DNA of 36,344 bases from Candidatus Peregrinibacteria bacterium RIFOXYB2_FULL_33_20 (GTDB taxonomy: Bacteria; Patescibacteriota; Gracilibacteria; UBA1369; GWF2-33-10), in assembly GCA_001788835.1 (NCBI GenBank), contig MFXK01000035.1:1-36344 (forward strand), given 5' to 3'. Below are positions 2,377 through 24,380 of this stretch, piece after piece (within the stretch, counting starts at the first letter, position 1; the number at the start of each line of letters is the position of its first letter). The position numbers and the translations under genes are program-made. The notes below the pieces were generated by a model, which was not told the DNA's origin, ran no database searches, and worked only from the letters and a program-made list of their open reading frames with translations.

Positions 2377-2406
2377 TTGACATAAGTAGATTTAATTGTT
2401 GATAAT
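2377..2406 (+). promoter_or_regulatory. Sigma-70 promoter for the wHTH/kinase-like pair
   Basis: TTGACA (2377-2382) is a perfect -35 box. After an 18-base spacer comes GATAAT (2401-2406), which matches five of six -10 positions. The start codon is at 2438, so the leader is about 25 bases. No Shine-Dalgarno sequence is visible before that ATG. Confidence 0.7.
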
Positions 2407-2437: not shown

Positions 2438-5362
2438 ATGCCGATAACAGTCCTTGAAAGTGTTGATTTACAGGAAAAATTCCAAAAAGCAGAAGAAGCT
2501 AATGATGTAATTCAGCAGGCTTATATCTTACAAGAGATTGTTCAGCAAGTAAGAATAGAATTGACTGCTGAAAAAAGACCAAAAATTAATGAACGAGTTA
2601 GTGCCCTTACAGGCCTTACACCTCCACAAATATACGATTTATTAGCTGTTTTGGAAATTCCAGAAGAAATATTAACTTTACTTAATTTTAAAGAAGCTAA
2701 AATTAGCTCTTTAGGTGCGCTAATAATTGCTTTTGCGATGAGGAGAGTAAGAAATTTTGCGGGGGAGGTCTTAAATCAAACTGTTATCATAAGTCGTGTA
2801 ATTGAAGTATTGGAATTAAAGGAAAATTATAATTATGTGGGTGGTCAAGCTAAAGGAAACAGTGTAACCGATAGATTAGATGCTTTTTTTGAGGCTTTAT
2901 ATAATGAAAGTCCAGAAAATAGCGAATTAAGACTACATATATTATTGAGCATAATGCTAATTTCAATAAGACCGGGCCAAAAACGTTTTACCAGTGCTGT
3001 AACAGATAGGTTTCGACAATTGCAAGGTTTCGATGGTGTCATGATAGAAAAAGCCTTAAGAGAAAAAGATTATCCTTTTGATAGGGTGGCAAGATTTATT
3101 AATGATTGTAAACAACAATTTACTTCTGTAGAAGATCAGCTTACAATTGCGCATCTTGAAACAGCCTTTCAAAGATCGAAAAGACCTCCAAAATTTCAAC
3201 CTGTTGCAGGCGCTCCTGATTTAATCAGAAGACATGCTGATATTTTTGGAAATGACAAACGTCACCACATGGCTACGAAATTAGCAGAAGCAGCTGCGCA
3301 AGGTGAATGGTTAACTCCAAGTGAAATTGAAGCTTATTTAAAAAACCAAGGTTTTGAATGTAATTATCCAATTAGGGATATGAGATTTCTAAAGGATGAA
3401 TTAGCACAAATTGGAATTGAAGTTGAAAGAGTGGAAAACGCGGCAGAATATTTTTTACGATTTAAAACAAGTGATAATAAAGAACAGATTTCCTGTCGTA
3501 GTATAGACGAAATTTTAATGGTTAGCGAGTATCCAAGAATAGAAGGTCTTATAACTATGGTTTTATCTCAAGCAGATAGATTTTCTTATGTACCACATTT
3601 GCTAATAGCTTATTGGTTAGCTGAGGCGACTGAAAACGGGCAAATTATGAGTACTGAAGATATTTTAAAAAAATTAAATGGATACTACCAGCAGGGAATA
3701 TCTTCTTTACCAAATCCATTACAAGCGGTTATAAATAAAAACAAATTTAAACCATCTAAAATAATATCTAAAGCCATAGAATTAAAAGTAGTAATGAAGT
3801 TTATGGATTGTAATCTCCAGGGATTACGTTTACAGCACTTCACTGGTTCTAGGGCCGAAACTAGAACAATGTGCCACTATTATCGTTTGTATCCAAGTGA
3901 TCATAAAGCTGTCTTAGCGCAAGAAAGGAGCTCATTACCAGAACATATATTGAAAAATTTTAAAAAATTTGATAATGACAGTTTAAGAGTGGTAATTGGA
4001 TATGCAATGGCTAACATCCAAACTGGTAAATTTACTCATGAAGTAATTACTCTATTAATTGAAGCACTTATAAACGGCTCATTAACAGTGCCAGAAGGCC
4101 TCCAATCTGATATTGCGGTAGTAACTAAAGAAAATATCAGATTTAGCGATAGGGTGTATGCTTTAAATTTAGATTTTATTAAGAAAGCTTTTGATATGTT
4201 GGGCTTAGAAATAGTAAAAGTACAATTATCACATTCTCAACAAAGAAAAACAGCATATGAAGTTCGTTGTAAAGATTCAACAAGCTTACAGGTTAACTCG
4301 CGTTTAGTTCAAGATGAAAATGAAAATTATAAACGGGATTTTTCTAAACATATAAGAGCTAATCTTGATGTCTTTTCTGATAATGATGTCTTGAGATATT
4401 TCATCGCTATAAAAATTGCAGAATCTACAGAACCTCTTACCGCAAGAGAAATTACAAAAGCTTTAGGTTTAAATCAGACCTATAGTTTTATGGTGTCTAG
4501 TATTTTGAGAGAACTTGCTGATTCGCTTTCATATATCGGAATTGGTCTTGATCAAGCAAAAGGAAGTAAAGTTAAATATTCACTTAAATGGGTAAATAAA
4601 AGTGAAACAAGTTACGGATCAATTTCCTATCGCCGGATAAGCGATTATCAAAGAAGAGGAGCAGAGACGGATAGAAATGTCCGAGAAGTGATAGACATAC
4701 AGGCAATATCTGCTGATATAAAATTAGTTAGAGGAGGATTAACAGGAGGAGTTTTAGAAGATATAGGCGGAGTAAAATTTGTAAAACCCGTAGCGTTACG
4801 CGTGCCTGAACAACAAAGAGTTAATATCCCTACAGAAGAAATTTGGCCAGTAGCTCCAAAACCAATACCTGTATTTTATTCAGTGCAAGAAAATGATGGA
4901 GTGTTAATCCTTACCGAAAGTGGAGAAAAAGAACAAGAAGTATTAAGAATAACACAAGGGACATTAATAGTTACTAAAAGCGATCATAAATCTAGTCCTT
5001 TATTCACTATTTTTCCCATACAAGTACTAGGAATAGATATCATAGATAAGAAACCATTTATTATAGGCTCAGTGATGGGAGTTAATAACAGGACCAATAT
5101 TTTTTTACCTTTAAATTCTTTTGAAGCTTTATCGCCAGAATCAACGTATATAAGAGAAATGGATGCTCCTGCTATATGGCATGTCATTAATCGATTAACA
5201 GGAATTATTGATTACAAGGGACAAAGAACGAATAAGTTAATGGAAATAATTTCTATATTTATGCCAAAATATAAAGAATGGATTTCTACTCATTCTGATA
5301 GGGCAATCTCTACCAAGGAAATTGAAGAGATGTGTAAAAAAACCTTTACCGCTGTCCCTTGA
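2438..5362 (+). CDS. Large protein with ParB-like HTH and repeated winged-helix-like modules, function unknown
   Basis: This 974-aa protein has no signal peptide or membrane segment. Residues about 47-85 (LTGLTPPQIYDLLAVLEIP, then EEILTLLNFKEAKISSLG) have the pattern of the ParB/Spo0J central HTH, a recognition helix, LxxLxLPEE and then a GHA-like segment. Four later stretches share one pattern: a helix with IAxxLAEA, a TxxEI helix, a recognition-like helix ending LxxELxxIG, then a charged beta hairpin. They lie at about 263-345, 385-490, 512-612 and 645-720. I read these as winged-helix modules. The part from about 750 onward is beta-rich and ends in a helical tail; I do not recognise it. 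No ParB CTPase motif (GERRxRA) is visible. It is the first gene of an operon with a kinase-like protein. It may be a DNA-binding regulator or scaffold. The DNA-binding reading is inference from sequence pattern. Confidence 0.6.
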   Translation: MPITVLESVDLQEKFQKAEEANDVIQQAYILQEIVQQVRIELTAEKRPKINERVSALTGLTPPQIYDLLAVLEIPEEILTLLNFKEAKISSLGALIIAFAMRRVRNFAGEVLNQTVIISRVIEVLELKENYNYVGGQAKGNSVTDRLDAFFEALYNESPENSELRLHILLSIMLISIRPGQKRFTSAVTDRFRQLQGFDGVMIEKALREKDYPFDRVARFINDCKQQFTSVEDQLTIAHLETAFQRSKRPPKFQPVAGAPDLIRRHADIFGNDKRHHMATKLAEAAAQGEWLTPSEIEAYLKNQGFECNYPIRDMRFLKDELAQIGIEVERVENAAEYFLRFKTSDNKEQISCRSIDEILMVSEYPRIEGLITMVLSQADRFSYVPHLLIAYWLAEATENGQIMSTEDILKKLNGYYQQGISSLPNPLQAVINKNKFKPSKIISKAIELKVVMKFMDCNLQGLRLQHFTGSRAETRTMCHYYRLYPSDHKAVLAQERSSLPEHILKNFKKFDNDSLRVVIGYAMANIQTGKFTHEVITLLIEALINGSLTVPEGLQSDIAVVTKENIRFSDRVYALNLDFIKKAFDMLGLEIVKVQLSHSQQRKTAYEVRCKDSTSLQVNSRLVQDENENYKRDFSKHIRANLDVFSDNDVLRYFIAIKIAESTEPLTAREITKALGLNQTYSFMVSSILRELADSLSYIGIGLDQAKGSKVKYSLKWVNKSETSYGSISYRRISDYQRRGAETDRNVREVIDIQAISADIKLVRGGLTGGVLEDIGGVKFVKPVALRVPEQQRVNIPTEEIWPVAPKPIPVFYSVQENDGVLILTESGEKEQEVLRITQGTLIVTKSDHKSSPLFTIFPIQVLGIDIIDKKPFIIGSVMGVNNRTNIFLPLNSFEALSPESTYIREMDAPAIWHVINRLTGIIDYKGQRTNKLMEIISIFMPKYKEWISTHSDRAISTKEIEEMCKKTFTAVP

Positions 5363-5401
5363 AACGTTCTATTATAAAAGAATATATTGTTATTTGTTTT
5401 T

Positions 5402-6460
5402 ATGTCTGAGAGATATTTGCTTGTTAAGTCAAATTCTTCACCGGATTTGCTGCGTGAATGTTTAGAATTTGATCCAAAAGACCCGGCAAAATGTAGAGTG
5501 CATGTCTTACCAGCGGCAAAGATAGGAGAGGATAGAATAAAAATAGATATATTGCTTGATTCAGATGATATAAAAAATAACATAACTGTTCGACAAAAGC
5601 ATTCTCATCATCAGGTAATTGTCACTTTATTAAAAGATAGAGGTTTAGGTTTAGTTTACGATCTTGAGGATGGAATTTTGAAAATAATAAACTTAGAAAG
5701 ATTAAAGACGCTTGATAATATGCACATACTTAATGGGAAATTAAGAGAAATTGACCATAAACATTTAGGAAAAGTGTTTGGGATAAGGGATATAATTTTG
5801 ATTGATGAGGAAAATGAAAAAAGAATAATAGGAATTTTATCAAGAAAAGAGCGAGTGGTGGAAAATTTACACACATTAATAAAAGAAAGAAACTCAGAAA
5901 CTGATTTACCTCAATTAGCAATTTTTCTTTTACAATCACTACAAGGCTTGCAAGCACTCCATAATGAAAAATTGATATTTGGTGATTTTAAATTGCCTAA
6001 TATTGAAATTGTCAAAGAAGGCGAAGAAAAAATAGCAAAATTATTGGATTTTGACACTATTCAAGAAGTAGATAAATGTGTTATATATCAATGTTTCTCC
6101 TGTGGTTACACCCCTTCGAGTGCTCAATTAGATCGCACCTCTTTTTCTAATGACGTGCTTTCTGTTGGCAGGGGATTAATTGGACTCTTAGCTCCAGAAA
6201 TGCTGGCAATTTATAGTTTTGCTGATAAAATGCGATTAATGTTTGGCGATAGTGAACATGATAATTTAGATGAAGTTTATGAAGAATTATTAAGTAGTAG
6301 AAATAAATTTATTGAAACTTATGAATATCCAGAAGAATTAGTTGATATTATGATTGCCGCGAACCATCCAGAACAAATTCAAAGACCTTCTTTGGCGGAT
6401 ATTATGGATGTGATTGAAAAATCTATTCCGAAATTGCCTTTGCGATATCCAGAATTTTAA
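5402..6460 (+). CDS. Divergent Ser/Thr protein kinase-like protein
   Basis: The ATG at 5402 gives 352 aa; an upstream TTG at 5387 is in frame but less likely. The second half shows a kinase C-lobe. LHNEKLIFGDFKLPNIEI stands for the catalytic loop: Asp195, Lys197 and Asn200 of HRDxKxxN are kept, but HR is replaced by FG. LLDFD stands for DFG, with the metal-binding Asp216 kept and Gly changed to Asp. CGYTPSSAQ resembles the GYxAPE segment, and SNDVLSVGRGLIGLL the DxxSLGxxLxELL helix. IQRPSLADIMDVI matches the RPS/T ending of the fold. A candidate VAIK lysine is in ILKIINLE (about 94). No glycine-rich loop is clear. It follows the HTH protein by 39 bp with no promoter between, so the two are probably co-transcribed. 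It could be an active kinase with a variant loop or a pseudokinase sensor. Confidence 0.65.
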   Translation: MSERYLLVKSNSSPDLLRECLEFDPKDPAKCRVHVLPAAKIGEDRIKIDILLDSDDIKNNITVRQKHSHHQVIVTLLKDRGLGLVYDLEDGILKIINLERLKTLDNMHILNGKLREIDHKHLGKVFGIRDIILIDEENEKRIIGILSRKERVVENLHTLIKERNSETDLPQLAIFLLQSLQGLQALHNEKLIFGDFKLPNIEIVKEGEEKIAKLLDFDTIQEVDKCVIYQCFSCGYTPSSAQLDRTSFSNDVLSVGRGLIGLLAPEMLAIYSFADKMRLMFGDSEHDNLDEVYEELLSSRNKFIETYEYPEELVDIMIAANHPEQIQRPSLADIMDVIEKSIPKLPLRYPEF

Positions 6461-9195: not shown

Positions 9196-9221
9196 ATAAA
9201 CGCATAATATTATTGAGATAT

Positions 9222-10961
9222 ATGTTCAAAACTTGTAAAAATTGTCAGCAAAATCTTGAAATCACTGACGAGGATTTGAAATTTTATGACAAAATCTCGC
9301 CGATTTTTACTGGAAAAAAATATTCACTCCCTCCGCCAAATTTATGTCCTGATTGCAGAAGTCAGCAAAGAATGCAGTTTAGAAATTTTCGTAATTTATA
9401 TAACGCTAAATCCGCATTATCAGGAGAAAAAATTATATCCATGTATCATCCACAGCTTAATTATAAGGTTTATTCCATTAATGAATGGTGGAGTGATCAA
9501 TGGGAAGGCCTGAATTTCGGACAGGAATATAGCTTCGATAAAGATTTTTTTGAACAATTTTATGATTTGCAATTAAAAGTTCCTAAACTGCCATTGAAGC
9601 AATTACAATGTGAAGCTTGTGAATACTCTAATTTTGCTTTTAAATCACAAAATTGTTATTTGGTGTTTGGTTGTGTGGAAAATCAAGATTGTCTATATGG
9701 ACACATTGTCTGGCGTTCCAAAGATTGTCTAGATGGACTGTATATTTATGAGTGTAATTTTTGCTATGAATGTCTTGATTGCGTTGGTTGTTATAAATCT
9801 TATTTTTCTACTGAATGTGTGAATTGTGCTGAAACATGGTTTTGTCATGATTGTTTAGGATGCAATAATTGTTTTGGCTCTACCAATCTTAAACAAAAAA
9901 GCTGGTACTGGAATAACGAATATCTTGGTAAAGAAAAATATCTGGAAAAATTTAAAAAAATTTCCCCTTTAAACTATAAAACTATTAAACAAGCAAAACA
10001 GGATTTATCGCTTAGAAAAAAAAATCAAACTGTTTTTCCGGAAATATTTGGCAATTTGAATGAAAATGTGACCGGTAATCACATTTATTTTTCCAAAAAT
10101 TTAACTAATTGTTTTGACGCTAAAAGATGTGAAAACTGTAAATTTTTATACACCTCTCAAACATTCACAGATTGCTATGATTGTAATTTTACACCAGGTA
10201 ATTGCGAGTTATCATACAACTGTTTGGCAGTTGGAGATAGCCGGAATTTAATTAATTGCCGCGAAATTAGCAACTCGACTAATTTAATTTATTGTTATGA
10301 ATGTCAGAATTGTCATGATTGTTTTGGTTGTGATGGTTTAAAATATAAAAATTATTGCATTTTAAACAAACAATACAGCAAAGAAGAATATGAAAAATTA
10401 GTGCCAAAAATTATTGAAGCGATGAAATCCCCTAAATCCCCTTTAACAAGGGGACTTGGACACCCCCTTGACAAAGGGGGCTTGGGGGATTGTGAGTGGG
10501 GAGAATTTTTCCCATCTTCAATTTCTCCTTTTGGCTACAATGAAACCGTGGCGCAGGAATATTTCCCTTTGACCAAAAATGAATGTTTAAAAAAAGGATT
10601 TAAATGGTCAGATTACGAGCCGGAATTTCCAAAAGTTGAAAAAATTATTCCAGCTAATCTTTTACCAGATGCAATTTCAGAAATCCCTGATGATATTTTA
10701 AATTGGGCGGTGCAATGCGAAATCACCAAAAAACCTTTTAAAATCATCAAACCAGAATTAGATTTTTATCGCGAACATAATCTGCCAATTCCGCATTTGC
10801 ATCCCGATGAACGGCATAAACAAAGAATGGCTCTTCGAAATCCAAGAAAACTGTGGAAAAGAAGTTGTATTAAATGTAATGCTGAAATTCAAACTACTTA
10901 TTCTCCTGATCGACCTGAGATGGTTTATTGCGAAAAGTGCTACTTAGAAATTGTATACTAA
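9222..10961 (+). CDS. Cys-rich multi-zinc-ribbon protein, function unknown
   Basis: The ATG at 9222 gives 579 aa starting MFKTCKNCQQNLEITDED; a TTG nine bases upstream is in frame but less likely. The N-terminal zinc ribbon (CKNC ... CPDC, about 5-45) is followed by FRNFRNLY. The middle has many short repeats with paired or single Cys, such as CNFCYECLDCVGCYKSYFS and CHDCLGCNNCFGSTNL. Each block ends with a KxYWNxxYLGKEKY-like or YCILNKQYSKEEYEKLV unit; these look like stacked solenoid turns. The C-terminus has a second ribbon (CIKC ... CEKC, about 554-575). I have seen this architecture as unannotated proteins in Patescibacteria but know no function. Residues about 402-423 are encoded by a palindromic DNA element in frame. 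It is the last gene of the operon. Confidence 0.65.
   Translation: MFKTCKNCQQNLEITDEDLKFYDKISPIFTGKKYSLPPPNLCPDCRSQQRMQFRNFRNLYNAKSALSGEKIISMYHPQLNYKVYSINEWWSDQWEGLNFGQEYSFDKDFFEQFYDLQLKVPKLPLKQLQCEACEYSNFAFKSQNCYLVFGCVENQDCLYGHIVWRSKDCLDGLYIYECNFCYECLDCVGCYKSYFSTECVNCAETWFCHDCLGCNNCFGSTNLKQKSWYWNNEYLGKEKYLEKFKKISPLNYKTIKQAKQDLSLRKKNQTVFPEIFGNLNENVTGNHIYFSKNLTNCFDAKRCENCKFLYTSQTFTDCYDCNFTPGNCELSYNCLAVGDSRNLINCREISNSTNLIYCYECQNCHDCFGCDGLKYKNYCILNKQYSKEEYEKLVPKIIEAMKSPKSPLTRGLGHPLDKGGLGDCEWGEFFPSSISPFGYNETVAQEYFPLTKNECLKKGFKWSDYEPEFPKVEKIIPANLLPDAISEIPDDILNWAVQCEITKKPFKIIKPELDFYREHNLPIPHLHPDERHKQRMALRNPRKLWKRSCIKCNAEIQTTYSPDRPEMVYCEKCYLEIVY
10426..10491. repeat. Nested palindromic repeat element inside a coding sequence
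   Basis: Two arms of 29 bases are inverted relative to each other and agree at 23 of 29 positions. Outer ends are AATCCCC (10426-10432) and GGGGATT (10485-10491). Each arm also folds on itself: CCCCTTTAACAAGGGG on the left and CCCCCTTTGTCAAGGGGG on the right. The element is far richer in G+C than its surroundings. It is read in frame as SPKSPLTRGLGHPLDKGGLG. Its shape suggests a small non-autonomous palindromic mobile repeat. Confidence 0.75.
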
Positions 10962-14706: not shown

Positions 14707-15501
14707 TTAATTATTGTCCTGAAAATCACTTACTAAACTTACAATATGTTCTTTAAATTTACCTTTAAGTCGTAGCTCTAATTGTCTAATCCTTTCCTTG
14801 CTCACTCCAAACTGCTCACCAATTTCCTCCAGGGATAATGGTTCTTCAGCTAATAAACGTTGATTAAATATAACTTTCTCCCTCTCGTTGGTTAATTGCG
14901 ATTGAAATTGCCTAATTAAATTAACAATTTTAGACTTATCCATCAACTCAATTAACCACTCATCACTTACCACCCCTGAAGTTAAAACCATATTATCATC
15001 ACCTTCTGGAGACAAAAAATCTAACAAATACCTCAGTTCAGTAACTTCGTTTAAGGTAAAATCGCCATTATCAGCTATTTCCTGATCAGAAGGTTCACGC
15101 CCTAAACTTATCAATAATTTTCGCATTATTCTTCTAAAAGAATTTATTTTACGCGAAACCCTATTATCACCAGTGAAACCTTGTCCCTCTTTAACACTTC
15201 GGAATAAAGCTCCTTTAATAAAAGCTCTAGCATAAGTTGTAAATTTCCCAATAGAGGCATTAAATCCTGATAAAGATTGTAAAGTTCCCAGAAGCACACT
15301 TTGTTCAAAATCTTGACGTCCCAACAAATATTCATATTGATGTAGCTCTTTATCTTTTCTAGCTAAAGCCAACAAGAAAACAATGTGCTCTGGATTATTC
15401 AATATAGTCGAATCCAAAACCTGTCCTTCTCTTGTTAATTGAAAAACCTGCTCATTAAGATCACTTTGTACGGGGGAATGCCCTAAGTTAATTCCTTTCA
15501 T
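14707..15501 (-). CDS. Alternative sigma-70 family factor, RpoH-like
   Basis: This is a 264-aa sigma factor. Region 4 is clear: LTNEREKVIFNQRLLAEEPLS then LEEIGEQFGVSKERIRQLE (about 203-242), with the GVSxERIRQLE recognition helix found in group 2 and RpoH factors. RLLAEEPLSL is close to the RpoH signature. Region 3 (about 118-160) has LGREPSDQEIAD. Region 2 (about 45-110) is divergent. GFNASIGKFTTYARAFIKGALF stands for the FDP..G.RFSTYA.WWIR pattern, but the aromatic pair that melts the -10 element is not obvious. Thus it may read an unusual promoter. There is no region 1.1. A TTGACA box lies upstream. Its target genes cannot be told from this window. Confidence 0.85.
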   Translation of the reverse strand: MKGINLGHSPVQSDLNEQVFQLTREGQVLDSTILNNPEHIVFLLALARKDKELHQYEYLLGRQDFEQSVLLGTLQSLSGFNASIGKFTTYARAFIKGALFRSVKEGQGFTGDNRVSRKINSFRRIMRKLLISLGREPSDQEIADNGDFTLNEVTELRYLLDFLSPEGDDNMVLTSGVVSDEWLIELMDKSKIVNLIRQFQSQLTNEREKVIFNQRLLAEEPLSLEEIGEQFGVSKERIRQLELRLKGKFKEHIVSLVSDFQDNN

Positions 15502-18956: not shown

Positions 18957-21900
18957 ATGGGACAAATGTTTTTCCATAACATCAAGACTTGGATAAAAAA
19001 TAAATTTTCTTTTGGAGAAAAAAGAAGACTTTTTGCGAACACTGCTGGCGAAGGCGGACAGGGCGCTAGAGAAAATTTAGAGCGATTGACTAAGGCTGAG
19101 AGAATTATCTGGGAAATTTTACAGACTAAAGGAACCCGTAATCAGGAAGAACAATATGTTTATGAACAGTTAGAGCAAAAACAACATGCAGAAGCTAATT
19201 TAACCTACATCCATAACCCCATCGTTAAGGATTATTGTTTATGCTTACTACATAAAATTGAACATAAAGAAGGTCTGGCAGAATATGAAAAAATATTTTT
19301 GCGGGATAATGAAGAGGAAATTCAAAATTTAAGATTACAAAAAGGTCAAAATGAGAATTTTGGCTTGAAAGATGAAGAAATCAGAACCCTTTATGCCAAT
19401 GTGGTGGAGGAAGAAAAAGGCGCAGCGTATAGAATAAATAGAACCATACTGGCTTCTCGAAACAAAATGTATGCATTGCTGGCCAACGAAACTGAAAAAA
19501 TTGAGGATAGCACCAAGTTAGGCATTAGATCAATTTTTGACCTAGTCAAAGACAAAAAATTAATGAATAGGATGAGTAAAGAAAAATTAGCCACTGAAGA
19601 AGAAATGACCGCCAAATGGGAAGAGATTGAAAAGCAAATCGCTGACTTCATTCATAAATTTTTACCACAAGAACAGACAAGATTTAATCAATATTTAAAA
19701 TCTTTCCCTCACGATGTTCAAGATTCTGAGAAAAAAAAGAAATTTTTAAGTGGTGATATGCCTCATGGGACAGAAGCATTTCCTTACGCTTTGACTCAAT
19801 ATTTTTTGGATTTTAATCCTGTCTACAGCGGCGATGAAGATAAAATCGGCAAGGCTTATAAAAATTTGTTAAAAAAATATGAAATTCATAGCAATCTAAG
19901 CAATATCAGAGAGGCGTTAAGATTGCACAATCTCCAATTCAACTCAGAAAATTTAGACCGAAAAAAAAGAAATCTGGCCACAGCGGCTGAGCAAGCAAGG
20001 CGATATTTTGAGGAAAAAACGAAAGATCAAGCCCAAGGCGTGATTCACTTAGATGATCCGCAAGTACAAGCATTCATAGATAAGCAACAATTGGGCCCAA
20101 CGGTAAAAAAAATTCTGGCAGCAAAAGAAACAGGACAAAATACCAAAACTATCACGATTGAAGAGTTAACAGCCATGCAAACACAATTGGAAGGGCAAAT
20201 GAAAGATTCTGAAATTACAAGAGTAGAAGCGGCACAAGGAAGAGAGGCGGCTAGCGCTAAGCTTGGCGTGATGGGAAGATTGATGTCCGTCAAGAATCTC
20301 TTAGTAAATCAGCCTAGCAAAAAGAACGACCATGGCGAAATAATAGCAAAAGATAAAAGTTCCAAAACTATTTATCATAAGATAAAAATTTGGGCGGATA
20401 AACAAGCAAAGAAAAAAAATGACATTAGATCTAAAACAAAGCTAGAAGAACATAAGCAGCAACTACGAAGCGATATTGAAGATGTTAAAGGCAGTAAGAA
20501 ACTTTTGGAAGGCTTAACATCTAGCATAGGAAACTTTGATAATTACTTTTTATTTACTGAAGGCGTCTATGATACACGCTTTCACAGCAATATGGTTGAT
20601 GTAAGGTTTCAAGGTGAAAAACTTATAAATGCTGTGAATCAATATATTAATATTCAAGAACCAGGGGCTCAAAATTATTTAAGAAATATTATTTTACCTG
20701 AAATAAAAGAACAGGTAGCCAGCTGGGAAGAAAAAATAAATAGAATCAAGGGTTCTTCCCTTTCAATAAATGCTAAAAGCCATTTCCAAACTGAATACAC
20801 CAAATTTAAAGATAAGTTAAAACCTTCCACCCATCCAGGCCTTTTGAAAGAACTATCAGAAAGATTTCCTGGTCAAGAAGGGGAAGAAAATGAATTTGTA
20901 ACAATTTTTGATAAGGCTTTTGAAGCCGCTATAACAACTCCTGATGAGGGAAAACCAGATGAAGTGTTTTTTGATTCACAAAAATTTTTAAACCCATTAA
21001 AAGAATACATATTAACCCTGCCAAAAGATTTGCGAACTTATGCTGATGACGTGCAAACAGCTGATAAGTCTATGGAAAAAATTAACGAAGAAAGAAGCGA
21101 AATTTCCAAACAATTAATGGCCATTCAACAACTTCGGGATAATTTCGCGGAAACTGAAGACCAGAAATCCTTCAATTACCTGCAAAAACTTCAAGATGAA
21201 CTTAAAAGTCTTGATGATAATCCTGATCCAAGCGAAGAAGGTCAGCTCGCAAAGTTAATGAGAACGGAAACAATGGTACGCCAGCATGGAGACTTATTCG
21301 CCAAAATGGGTATTGATATCGAACGAAATTTGGAAGAAGGAACAGTAGCTCAAATCATTTCTCAACGTAATCAGGCTTCAGAAGAACAACTAAAACAAAC
21401 AGTAAAAGACTATAAGCAGGCTTTAGGACAAAATATGCCCACTTATCCGCCCAGAGCAGTTAATCCGGAAACATTCTTACTGCCTGAATCTATTCATTGC
21501 AAAGCGGTTGAAGGTCAGTGTCGTGTTTATCCGCAAACTTCTGCCATCATTGATAGGATTAAGAATGCTAATCAAACTCATTTTCGCGTGATCAGCAGAC
21601 AAACGGCCATGACCATCCCTGAAATAAAAACAGAACTTGAAAAAAGAAGCGATGGAACCATTAAGGGTTTTGATACTATCGATTGCCACAGAAATCAAAG
21701 CAATTCAAGTAAAATACAACCAATGGGTATCCAGGTCACCTATGGAGAAGACCCAAATAAGCAATATGCAATTTATGTGTTTGATGATTTCCAAAAGCAA
21801 CTACAAATTAGAAATATTGGAAACAATAAAGAAGCTGTTGATCATGTTTTAGCTAGTTTCTTGAGGGAGGAGCATATTCACAGCATCCAAGAAACAAAAG

Positions 21901-24380
21901 GCAAAACGTTAAGCCAATGGTTACAAAAATTTCAAAGTCATCAGGCGGAATGGAATGATATTGTTACTAATTTTCAGAATTTTTATGGTTATTCAAACCG
22001 GCCAGAAGACAGAAATGTTTTAAAAGAAATTTTAGCTCAGATCACAATTGCCGATGGACGCAACTTCAGTAAGGCTTACCAGCCAATGGTTGATACTGTT
22101 AACAACATTGCCCATCAAGAAGGAATTAATTTAGATCTGTTATCAGATAAAGTGACTAGCCGAACTGAAATGGAAATGGGAATACAAGAAGTATCCGCTC
22201 AACACGATATTGGCGCCAACGGATTAAATATCTTCGGTGATAATAATGAAACTAGTACGTCTCAAGAAACTGAAAATGAGGAAAATGTGGCTAAGAAAAA
22301 AAATGACATGATAGAGGAAATTGGAAGAATTACCCAAAGTCCTGACAAAGAATCTTCTGATGGACACGGTGGAGAGATAAAGCCTCATTATCTAAATATT
22401 GAAAATCTAAAAAAAAGGATAAAACAAGCTGACGTTGATTATGATTTTCAGATGCTCAATGACGCACAAAATGATTTGGAAGAATTGAAAAATGCCTTAA
22501 ATTTATTTAATACGAACACGGATAATGCAAAAAATGATTTTAAACCATTAGAACAACGTTACAAAGCCATTAAAACCGACTATTTGGAAAAATTAGAAAA
22601 ACACTTAAAAGAAGCCGAAGCGGTCAGTGCGCCATCAGTATCTTTTTTGCAAGATTTGTGGAATAATACCAGGTTTCTTTCTATACATAGCTGTGGCACC
22701 ATTATTAAGGAAGCCTGGGGACATTTCAAAGAAGAACACGAAACCAACGAAAATTTCAAATCTCACTTAGTTGGGCATCATATAGGCGGTGCCACTGCAT
22801 ACGGCAGTAAACAAAAAGCCAAGAAGCAAAGTGATGAACAACACAAAGTGCATGAATGGGTAGAGATGTTCAAAGGTATCAGCGAGGTGGAAATTGATGA
22901 ATTGATGTATAATTGTACGGATGAATTTCAGCTCAAAGCCTTATTGGAACATAAAGCCAATACCATCGGTGATTTGAGTTTTGGCGATAAGGCCGTATGG
23001 AGAGGTATAGAACGCACGCTTGGCAAAAGAATATATAGTCGTAGACAAGCTGAATATGCAATTGATGAACGTTATGGTAAAAACACAGCTTTAGAGCTGA
23101 ATAAATCAGCTAAAGCTAAATATAACGGCAAGGCTAATGAATTCAAAGAATTAGTACGAGCCCAGCAAAATCAAATGGACATTTGGAATGAAATGGTAGA
23201 GCACGTTGAGCATGCCAAACTTGCTAAACAAAGAAAACCATGGGTTGATTCCATGCACTATGACGCAGCTTTCCGATATTCCATTGACGATGGTAAGTCA
23301 ACGCCACAAAAAGCTTTTTATTATTTATTTAAAGGTTATAGCCTTGGCATATTGACACCTGAAGCAATGGAAGAACTGCAACAATCAAAATTAAACGACT
23401 TTCCTCCAATAGAAAATCTAGGCAAAGTACTGGAAGAACATGAAAAAGGTATTGTTTTCAAACCGCCAAAAAGAATTGCCGCTATGATGGATAAATTAGG
23501 TTATCACTATCATACGGAACTTGATTTTATATCTGCACTTAAGCCTTTCAAAAACCATGGCAGTCCCACTGATCCTGATTATTTAATTTGGGAATGGTGG
23601 CTGGCTGGAGAAAGATTTGGAGAATCTGACAAGGCAGCTGAACGTTTGAACAAGGCTTTCTCTAGAGCTAAAGCCAGCGCTGATCCTGATTGGTCAGAGG
23701 AAATGTTATGGCATTTGTCTGAAAGAGATTTCAAAACTGCTTTGGAAAAAACCGGATCCATGTCAGCTGATAAAATATCATCAAATTGTATGGCAAATTC
23801 CTATAAAACATTAATATATTATGCTAGTGTTCAAAATGACAATATATTCGAAAAAATGCTTAAAAAATTCGTAACTATAGATCGATATGTTTTTGAAGAT
23901 TCATATAAGTCTGATAAAGGCAATATCACGATAGATCAATCAGGCGGTCCAGTAAAAGACAGACCATCAGCTCCAGGATATTGGAAAACAGACCTTGATG
24001 TTAAATCAGTAATGCCTCCATCAACTGCATTTGGAACATATAGATATGTTTTATTCAAAGGAATGCAAGCTTATGCACAAGGTGGTCTTTCGGCTGCCAG
24101 AAAAGAAATAATCAGGTATGGAATGGCTCTAGGTGTTTATAATGATAATTCCGAAACAAAAGATTTTTTAGCAACTCAATGGGGAGCAGATTATCAAAAT
24201 ATTTTAACTAGGTCAGGAGAAAAAGAAATTTTATCAGGCGAAATCATGACAAAATATAAAGATATGCCATTAACACATTTAAATAAATTTGAAGGTAAAG
24301 CTCTTGCTGATTGGATGGGTGGTAACGAAAAATACAAATCATTAATTGGAAGCGCAAGCTCTTCTAAAACAACAGCATAA
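18957..24380 (+). CDS. Giant cytoplasmic-looking protein of unknown function
   Basis: This is a single uninterrupted 1807-aa frame. It has no signal peptide and no transmembrane segment. The first 30 residues (MGQMFFHNIKTWIKNKFSFG) are amphipathic and basic. Most of residues 40-800 and 1130-1270 is charged helix with coiled-coil character. A more globular part, about 840-990, holds Cys, His and aromatic residues and includes REEHIHS near 970. A second globular part (about 1280-1620) is rich in Trp and aromatic residues. An acidic spacer near 1090-1140 separates them. I recognise no domain. A second ATG three codons later is possible. It stands alone, convergent with thrS. It might be a structural or secretion-linked protein; this is speculation. 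Confidence 0.7.
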   Translation: MGQMFFHNIKTWIKNKFSFGEKRRLFANTAGEGGQGARENLERLTKAERIIWEILQTKGTRNQEEQYVYEQLEQKQHAEANLTYIHNPIVKDYCLCLLHKIEHKEGLAEYEKIFLRDNEEEIQNLRLQKGQNENFGLKDEEIRTLYANVVEEEKGAAYRINRTILASRNKMYALLANETEKIEDSTKLGIRSIFDLVKDKKLMNRMSKEKLATEEEMTAKWEEIEKQIADFIHKFLPQEQTRFNQYLKSFPHDVQDSEKKKKFLSGDMPHGTEAFPYALTQYFLDFNPVYSGDEDKIGKAYKNLLKKYEIHSNLSNIREALRLHNLQFNSENLDRKKRNLATAAEQARRYFEEKTKDQAQGVIHLDDPQVQAFIDKQQLGPTVKKILAAKETGQNTKTITIEELTAMQTQLEGQMKDSEITRVEAAQGREAASAKLGVMGRLMSVKNLLVNQPSKKNDHGEIIAKDKSSKTIYHKIKIWADKQAKKKNDIRSKTKLEEHKQQLRSDIEDVKGSKKLLEGLTSSIGNFDNYFLFTEGVYDTRFHSNMVDVRFQGEKLINAVNQYINIQEPGAQNYLRNIILPEIKEQVASWEEKINRIKGSSLSINAKSHFQTEYTKFKDKLKPSTHPGLLKELSERFPGQEGEENEFVTIFDKAFEAAITTPDEGKPDEVFFDSQKFLNPLKEYILTLPKDLRTYADDVQTADKSMEKINEERSEISKQLMAIQQLRDNFAETEDQKSFNYLQKLQDELKSLDDNPDPSEEGQLAKLMRTETMVRQHGDLFAKMGIDIERNLEEGTVAQIISQRNQASEEQLKQTVKDYKQALGQNMPTYPPRAVNPETFLLPESIHCKAVEGQCRVYPQTSAIIDRIKNANQTHFRVISRQTAMTIPEIKTELEKRSDGTIKGFDTIDCHRNQSNSSKIQPMGIQVTYGEDPNKQYAIYVFDDFQKQLQIRNIGNNKEAVDHVLASFLREEHIHSIQETKGKTLSQWLQKFQSHQAEWNDIVTNFQNFYGYSNRPEDRNVLKEILAQITIADGRNFSKAYQPMVDTVNNIAHQEGINLDLLSDKVTSRTEMEMGIQEVSAQHDIGANGLNIFGDNNETSTSQETENEENVAKKKNDMIEEIGRITQSPDKESSDGHGGEIKPHYLNIENLKKRIKQADVDYDFQMLNDAQNDLEELKNALNLFNTNTDNAKNDFKPLEQRYKAIKTDYLEKLEKHLKEAEAVSAPSVSFLQDLWNNTRFLSIHSCGTIIKEAWGHFKEEHETNENFKSHLVGHHIGGATAYGSKQKAKKQSDEQHKVHEWVEMFKGISEVEIDELMYNCTDEFQLKALLEHKANTIGDLSFGDKAVWRGIERTLGKRIYSRRQAEYAIDERYGKNTALELNKSAKAKYNGKANEFKELVRAQQNQMDIWNEMVEHVEHAKLAKQRKPWVDSMHYDAAFRYSIDDGKSTPQKAFYYLFKGYSLGILTPEAMEELQQSKLNDFPPIENLGKVLEEHEKGIVFKPPKRIAAMMDKLGYHYHTELDFISALKPFKNHGSPTDPDYLIWEWWLAGERFGESDKAAERLNKAFSRAKASADPDWSEEMLWHLSERDFKTALEKTGSMSADKISSNCMANSYKTLIYYASVQNDNIFEKMLKKFVTIDRYVFEDSYKSDKGNITIDQSGGPVKDRPSAPGYWKTDLDVKSVMPPSTAFGTYRYVLFKGMQAYAQGGLSAARKEIIRYGMALGVYNDNSETKDFLATQWGADYQNILTRSGEKEILSGEIMTKYKDMPLTHLNKFEGKALADWMGGNEKYKSLIGSASSSKTTA

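Follow-up and report, generated by a model that had tools for sequence, protein, structure and literature searches.

CTP-dependent clamping counts as a core property of ParB proteins, and to our knowledge only a few ParB-like proteins that do without it have been described. ParB/RepB/Spo0J proteins combine a ParB_N domain (PF02195), which in ParB binds CTP, with a ParB-type helix-turn-helix (HTH_ParB, PF17762). ParT, from the Streptomyces plasmid SCP2, is described as a ParB-like protein that has no CTPase domain and yet loads onto DNA and diffuses along it (PMC12260392). In Mycobacterium tuberculosis, Ser/Thr kinases phosphorylate ParB, and both DNA binding and interaction with ParA are lost in a phosphomimetic mutant (PMC4373775). 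A Pfam-based survey of fusions to the ParB CTPase fold names neither a winged-helix nor a kinase fusion under its domain fusions; because the survey rests on that fold, a protein without it would lie outside its scope (PMC12704722). No dedicated study of chromosome-partition machinery in the bacterial group treated below was found in the literature searched.

The locus considered here lies in Candidatus Peregrinibacteria bacterium RIFOXYB2_FULL_33_20, on a stretch of 36,344 nt (contig MFXK01000035.1, positions 1 to 36,344) hereafter called the window. An earlier note had described a two-gene unit, and both open reading frames were present where it had placed them: P0001 (2438..5362, 974 aa) and P0002 (5402..6460, 352 aa), on the forward strand, as are the features of the pair given below, and separated by the 39 nt it had reported. 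The length of P0002 is counted from the ATG at 5402; were translation to start at the TTG at 5387, which is in frame, it would be 357 aa. Pilin-like genes on the opposite strand (889-2099) lie upstream, and downstream, again on the opposite strand, a PCC-domain protein and a PdxS-like (SOR/SNZ) protein are encoded, so that P0001 and P0002 form an isolated co-directional pair. The strong promoter claimed ahead of P0001 was recovered as TTGACA-18-GATAAT (2377..2406), an 11/12 match; in random sequence of the same composition, a site as good would turn up in only about 0.65% of 340-bp stretches read on one strand. The accompanying claim, that no promoter lies between the genes, does not hold strictly, since a 10/12 match, probably due to chance, occupies 5359..5388. 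The scan found 50 matches of its grade in the region where 49.6 were expected, so the match in the gap tells little in either direction. Base composition carried no foreign signature (33% and 32% G+C in the pair, 33% in the rest), and no parA gene adjoined the pair. The defence role that the note had entertained found no echo in the surroundings: defence-island neighbours were looked for around the pair and none was found among what are ordinary chromosomal or housekeeping genes.

Three other features of the window are recorded here. The region 9213-10961 and a second locus (L076:10574-12319) encode paralogous cysteine-rich proteins of 582 and 581 aa; the stretch IIEAMKSPKSPLTRGLGHPLDKGGLGDCEWGEFFPSSISPFGYNETVAQEYFPLTK is almost identical between them while the rest has diverged, and it looks like an in-frame mobile repeat or the product of recent gene conversion. 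A 264-aa sigma-70-like protein, clear in regions 3 and 4 and weak in region 2, is encoded on the reverse strand at 14707-15501, and a 1807-aa protein is encoded on the forward strand at 18957-24380.

Searched alone, P0001 gave no usable match in Pfam, NCBIfam, PHROGs, PADLOC or PDB sequences. Full-length relatives were likewise absent from its own genome, 58 relatives of the same order, 380 genomes of the phylum and 353 of the class, and from GTDB contigs, IMG/VR, phages and plasmids. Internal repeats offered a way in. Two segments, R1 (residues 256-345; 3203..3472) and R4 (about residues 631-720; 4328..4597), are 31% identical, with an alignment score reached by none of 2000 shuffles. An AF2 model of R1, for which R4 was the sole aligned partner, reached pLDDT 85 and pTM 0.78 and displayed three or four helices with a two-strand wing, a winged-helix topology. 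Foldseek matches of this model to the PDB all had E > 0.02, and winged helices dominated them (Fur/PerR, SaeR, ScpB, Orc1). Between these segments lie two probable, degenerate winged helices, each with an insertion: R2 (residues 365-487; 3530..3898), the weaker case, with p 0.022 against R1 and 3-9 bits to the profiles, and R3 (residues 495-612; 3920..4273), with p 0.0005 against R1 and 0.021 against R4, which was missed by the profile of relatives introduced below. The several winged-helix-like modules announced by the note thus comprise two that are well supported, R1 and R4, and two for which the support is weaker. The C-terminal region (residues 735-974; 4640..5359) had no Pfam match at E 10. 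On contig C34 the repeat profile matched DnaK, which was discarded as a chance match.

When a profile of R1 and R4 was searched against the 353 class genomes, the proteins recovered proved to be ParB-like, and a second round added more. Four carry ParB_N, HTH_ParB and a single C-terminal winged helix, in that order: those of G055 (L081, 5844-7745), G631 (L080, 6490-8253), G656 (L098, 711-2606) and G655 (L099, 3920-5545). The ParB domains were confirmed by Pfam in G055, G656 and G655, and in G631 by ParB motifs in the alignment. The same architecture is spread over two open reading frames in G641, with a stop or frameshift between them. The winged helix also occurs without ParB domains, in proteins of 466 aa (G632) and 1064 aa (G013). 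The 1064-aa protein (L101:3878-7072) has one clear winged helix, at 94 bits to a nine-member profile, and no Pfam domain. A 1568-aa protein of G041 (L175:2852-7558) has several weak matches to the winged helix and a long coiled-coil-like region; smaller proteins with multiple winged helices are encoded in G637 (L102:6442-7476) and G016 (L104:323-1489).

Some neighbours of the ParB-like genes encode transcription factors. A sigma-70-like gene overlaps the G055 gene by 4 nt (L081:4882-7745), a divergent 854-aa protein with sigma-70 region 4 is encoded beside the G655 gene (L099:1333-5545), and a gene for an AAA+ protein of the sigma-54-activator type overlaps that of G641 (L082:385-3438). These neighbours hint that the ParB_N, HTH_ParB and winged-helix family has a part in transcription. 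Viral ParB matches were rejected as relatives, for they cover ParB_N and the HTH and lack the winged helix; weak winged-helix matches in other classes of the phylum, among them a ScpB-like protein, were set aside as generic winged helices. One viral contig (L118:6519-9350) holds a frame that, at 944 aa, is unusually long for a ParB protein and has a ParB domain near residues 588-655.

A profile built from the four intact relatives (L098, L099, L080 and L081), with P0001 excluded, allowed the remainder of P0001 to be placed. Residues 25-331 align in order to profile positions 154-448, through HTH_ParB, spacer and winged helix, and this colinear alignment scores 23.6 bits, where the highest of 500 shuffles reached 3.5. 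In an hhalign comparison, residues 52-331 matched the four-relative profile with probability 91.8 and E 7.4e-7. The winged-helix profile of these relatives gave R1 23.5 bits (best shuffle 4.3), and R4 obtained 16.7-19.1 bits against the relatives' profiles. The ParB-type HTH itself (about residues 25-85; 2510..2692) was absent by Pfam and was matched weakly, in its colinear context, by the profile of close relatives: within full-length P0001 it scored 9.1 bits, while a fragment of residues 1-130 scored 14.3 bits, which none of 5000 shuffles reached (maximum 12.7); among real open reading frames the match of the HTH alone had E of about 0.5. The colinear alignment bears out the note's call of a ParB-like HTH followed by winged-helix modules. 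It is also possible to regard P0001 as a generic regulator with multiple winged helices, whose N-terminal helices mimic the ParB HTH. The poor score of the HTH alone among real frames is in keeping with such a superficial likeness, as are the multi-winged-helix proteins without ParB domains in the same order (G637, G016, G041, G632 and G013). However, HTH, spacer and first winged helix match the ParB relatives in order and with the right spacing, and the HTH fragment outscores every shuffle; we therefore regard mere resemblance as unlikely.

What P0001 lacks is the other end of a ParB protein. Its sequence starts some 15 residues ahead of the ParB HTH, close to the point at which ParB_N stops in the relatives, and neither Pfam nor the relatives' profile found ParB_N in P0001; nor was a remnant detected upstream in any frame. 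The same domain was not found in the rest of the genome (1.5 Mb), by a search that was positive in 11 of 14 control genomes; at 96% completeness, the assembly could have missed a ParB. Without ParB_N, P0001 is missing the CTP-binding domain of ParB and, with no CTPase domain, would be unable to form a CTP-gated clamp like that of ParB. Its sequence is best explained by taking P0001 for a "headless" derivative of ParB from which the CTPase domain was lost; most likely it is a DNA-binding regulator or nucleoid protein, the binding of DNA being predicted from its domains. It shares with the relatives in the class the C-terminal winged helix of their type (R1 and R4). Unlike them and unlike canonical ParB/Spo0J, it lacks ParB_N and its CTP-binding motifs; unlike the relatives, it has the winged helix multiplied, an extra C-terminus of 240 aa and a kinase gene downstream. 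ParT resembles it by description, being likewise ParB-like and devoid of a CTPase domain; ParT differs in coming from a plasmid and in having ParA as its partner, and the abstract of the ParT report describes no kinase (PMC12260392).

The kinase-like nature of P0002 was confirmed. Its match to Pfam Pkinase (PF00069) scored 33.8 bits (cut-off 31.7, E 3.1e-8), and in an alignment with kinases of related genomes D195, K197, N200 and D216 are kept, leaving the key residues of the C-lobe intact. The catalytic loop, D195-F-K197-L-P-N200 (5984..6001), is of the non-RD type, with FGD in place of HRD, and D216-F-D (6047..6055) is the equivalent of the metal-binding DFG motif. A glycine loop, GLGLVY (residues 81-86), and a beta3 lysine, K94, can be placed only by eye, in a part of the alignment that is poor; the single-sequence AF2 model (pLDDT 36.8) was not usable. 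P0002 is a divergent non-RD protein kinase and is probably active. With bacterial Ser/Thr kinases, the PD-T4-6 defence kinases included, it has the catalytic D, K, N and DFx in common, while differing in its non-RD loop and high divergence. No full-length relative of P0002 was found in its own genome, the order, the phylum, the class, IMG/VR or GTDB contigs.

In HipBA, too, a kinase gene follows that of a DNA-binding protein, and the pair might accordingly be a defence or toxin-antitoxin unit, in which an abortive-infection or HipA-like toxin kinase is regulated by P0001. The PADLOC models PD-T4-6 and MkoA do match the kinase domain (about 1e-8), and the pair's occurrence is patchy. These matches, however, extend only to the generic kinase fold, and Pfam found no HipA domain in P0002. 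P0001, at 974 aa, is large and ParB-like, far above the size of an antitoxin, and without a PADLOC match; the housekeeping setting lacks defence neighbours. A defence or toxin-antitoxin function thus seems improbable.

The link between the two genes, and with it the note's suggestion that the kinase may sense or modify the HTH protein, rests on their adjacency in one genome, which is suggestive only. No kinase was found in the DNA flanking the nearest relatives of P0001, where the recognised neighbours are non-kinases; several flanks are short, and the motif scan applied to them picks up only 14 of 40 loci known to hold kinases. The converse search, by phmmer on the neighbours of about 40 kinase loci, found no relative of P0001. 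On contig C17 of G013 (L069:439-5727), several kinase-domain matches fall in neighbouring same-strand genes. P0002 may be an accidental neighbour with other targets, and P0001 a headless ParB-derived regulator or nucleoid protein acting without it. Besides the kinase-free flanks, this is favoured by G013, G016 and G055, in which the kinases recognised by Pfam models lie on contigs other than that of the winged-helix protein, and by the abundance of kinases in the order (33 of 59 genomes), which makes a chance neighbour possible. The shared strand, the 39-nt gap and the opposite-strand genes on either side argue the other way, and we consider an accidental pairing possible, if somewhat doubtful.

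The reading that we tentatively prefer is that of a two-gene unit, in which a headless, multi-winged-helix protein of ParB lineage is phosphorylated and controlled by a non-RD kinase. Its ancestor would have lost ParB_N, the CTPase domain at the N-terminus, and the winged helix that the relatives carry at the C-terminus would have been expanded to two clear and two degenerate copies. Together with the ParB-type HTH, the tandem winged helices would give P0001 a multivalent grip on DNA, as a regulator or as a nucleoid or partition protein. The kinase would be made from the same message, and by phosphorylating P0001 would alter its binding to DNA, standing in for the lost CTP switch. The clean arrangement of the genes (the narrow gap and opposite-strand flanks) counts for a two-gene unit. 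Against it count the single genome, with no full-length relative of either protein, the weakness of the ParB HTH when taken alone and the low confidence of the kinase N-lobe. M. tuberculosis ParB is a canonical ParB acted on by several kinases (PMC4373775), and phosphorylation of P0001 by P0002 is something that we infer. Together with ParT, the mycobacterial precedent renders both halves of the mechanism plausible and proves neither. A narrower version, which we think improbable, would make P0001 a segregation or nucleoid protein and the sole ParB relative in its genome, with phosphorylation replacing the CTP switch and the tandem winged helices replacing the clamp.

What the analysis adds is a ParB origin for the large protein P0001 and the loss of its CTPase domain, as best read from the alignments. 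The ParB_N, HTH_ParB and winged-helix lineage found along the way can itself be put to the test as a family. If the preferred reading is true, a ParB-lineage protein without a CTPase, with a multiplied winged helix and beside a kinase, would represent another route by which such DNA binders may be controlled.
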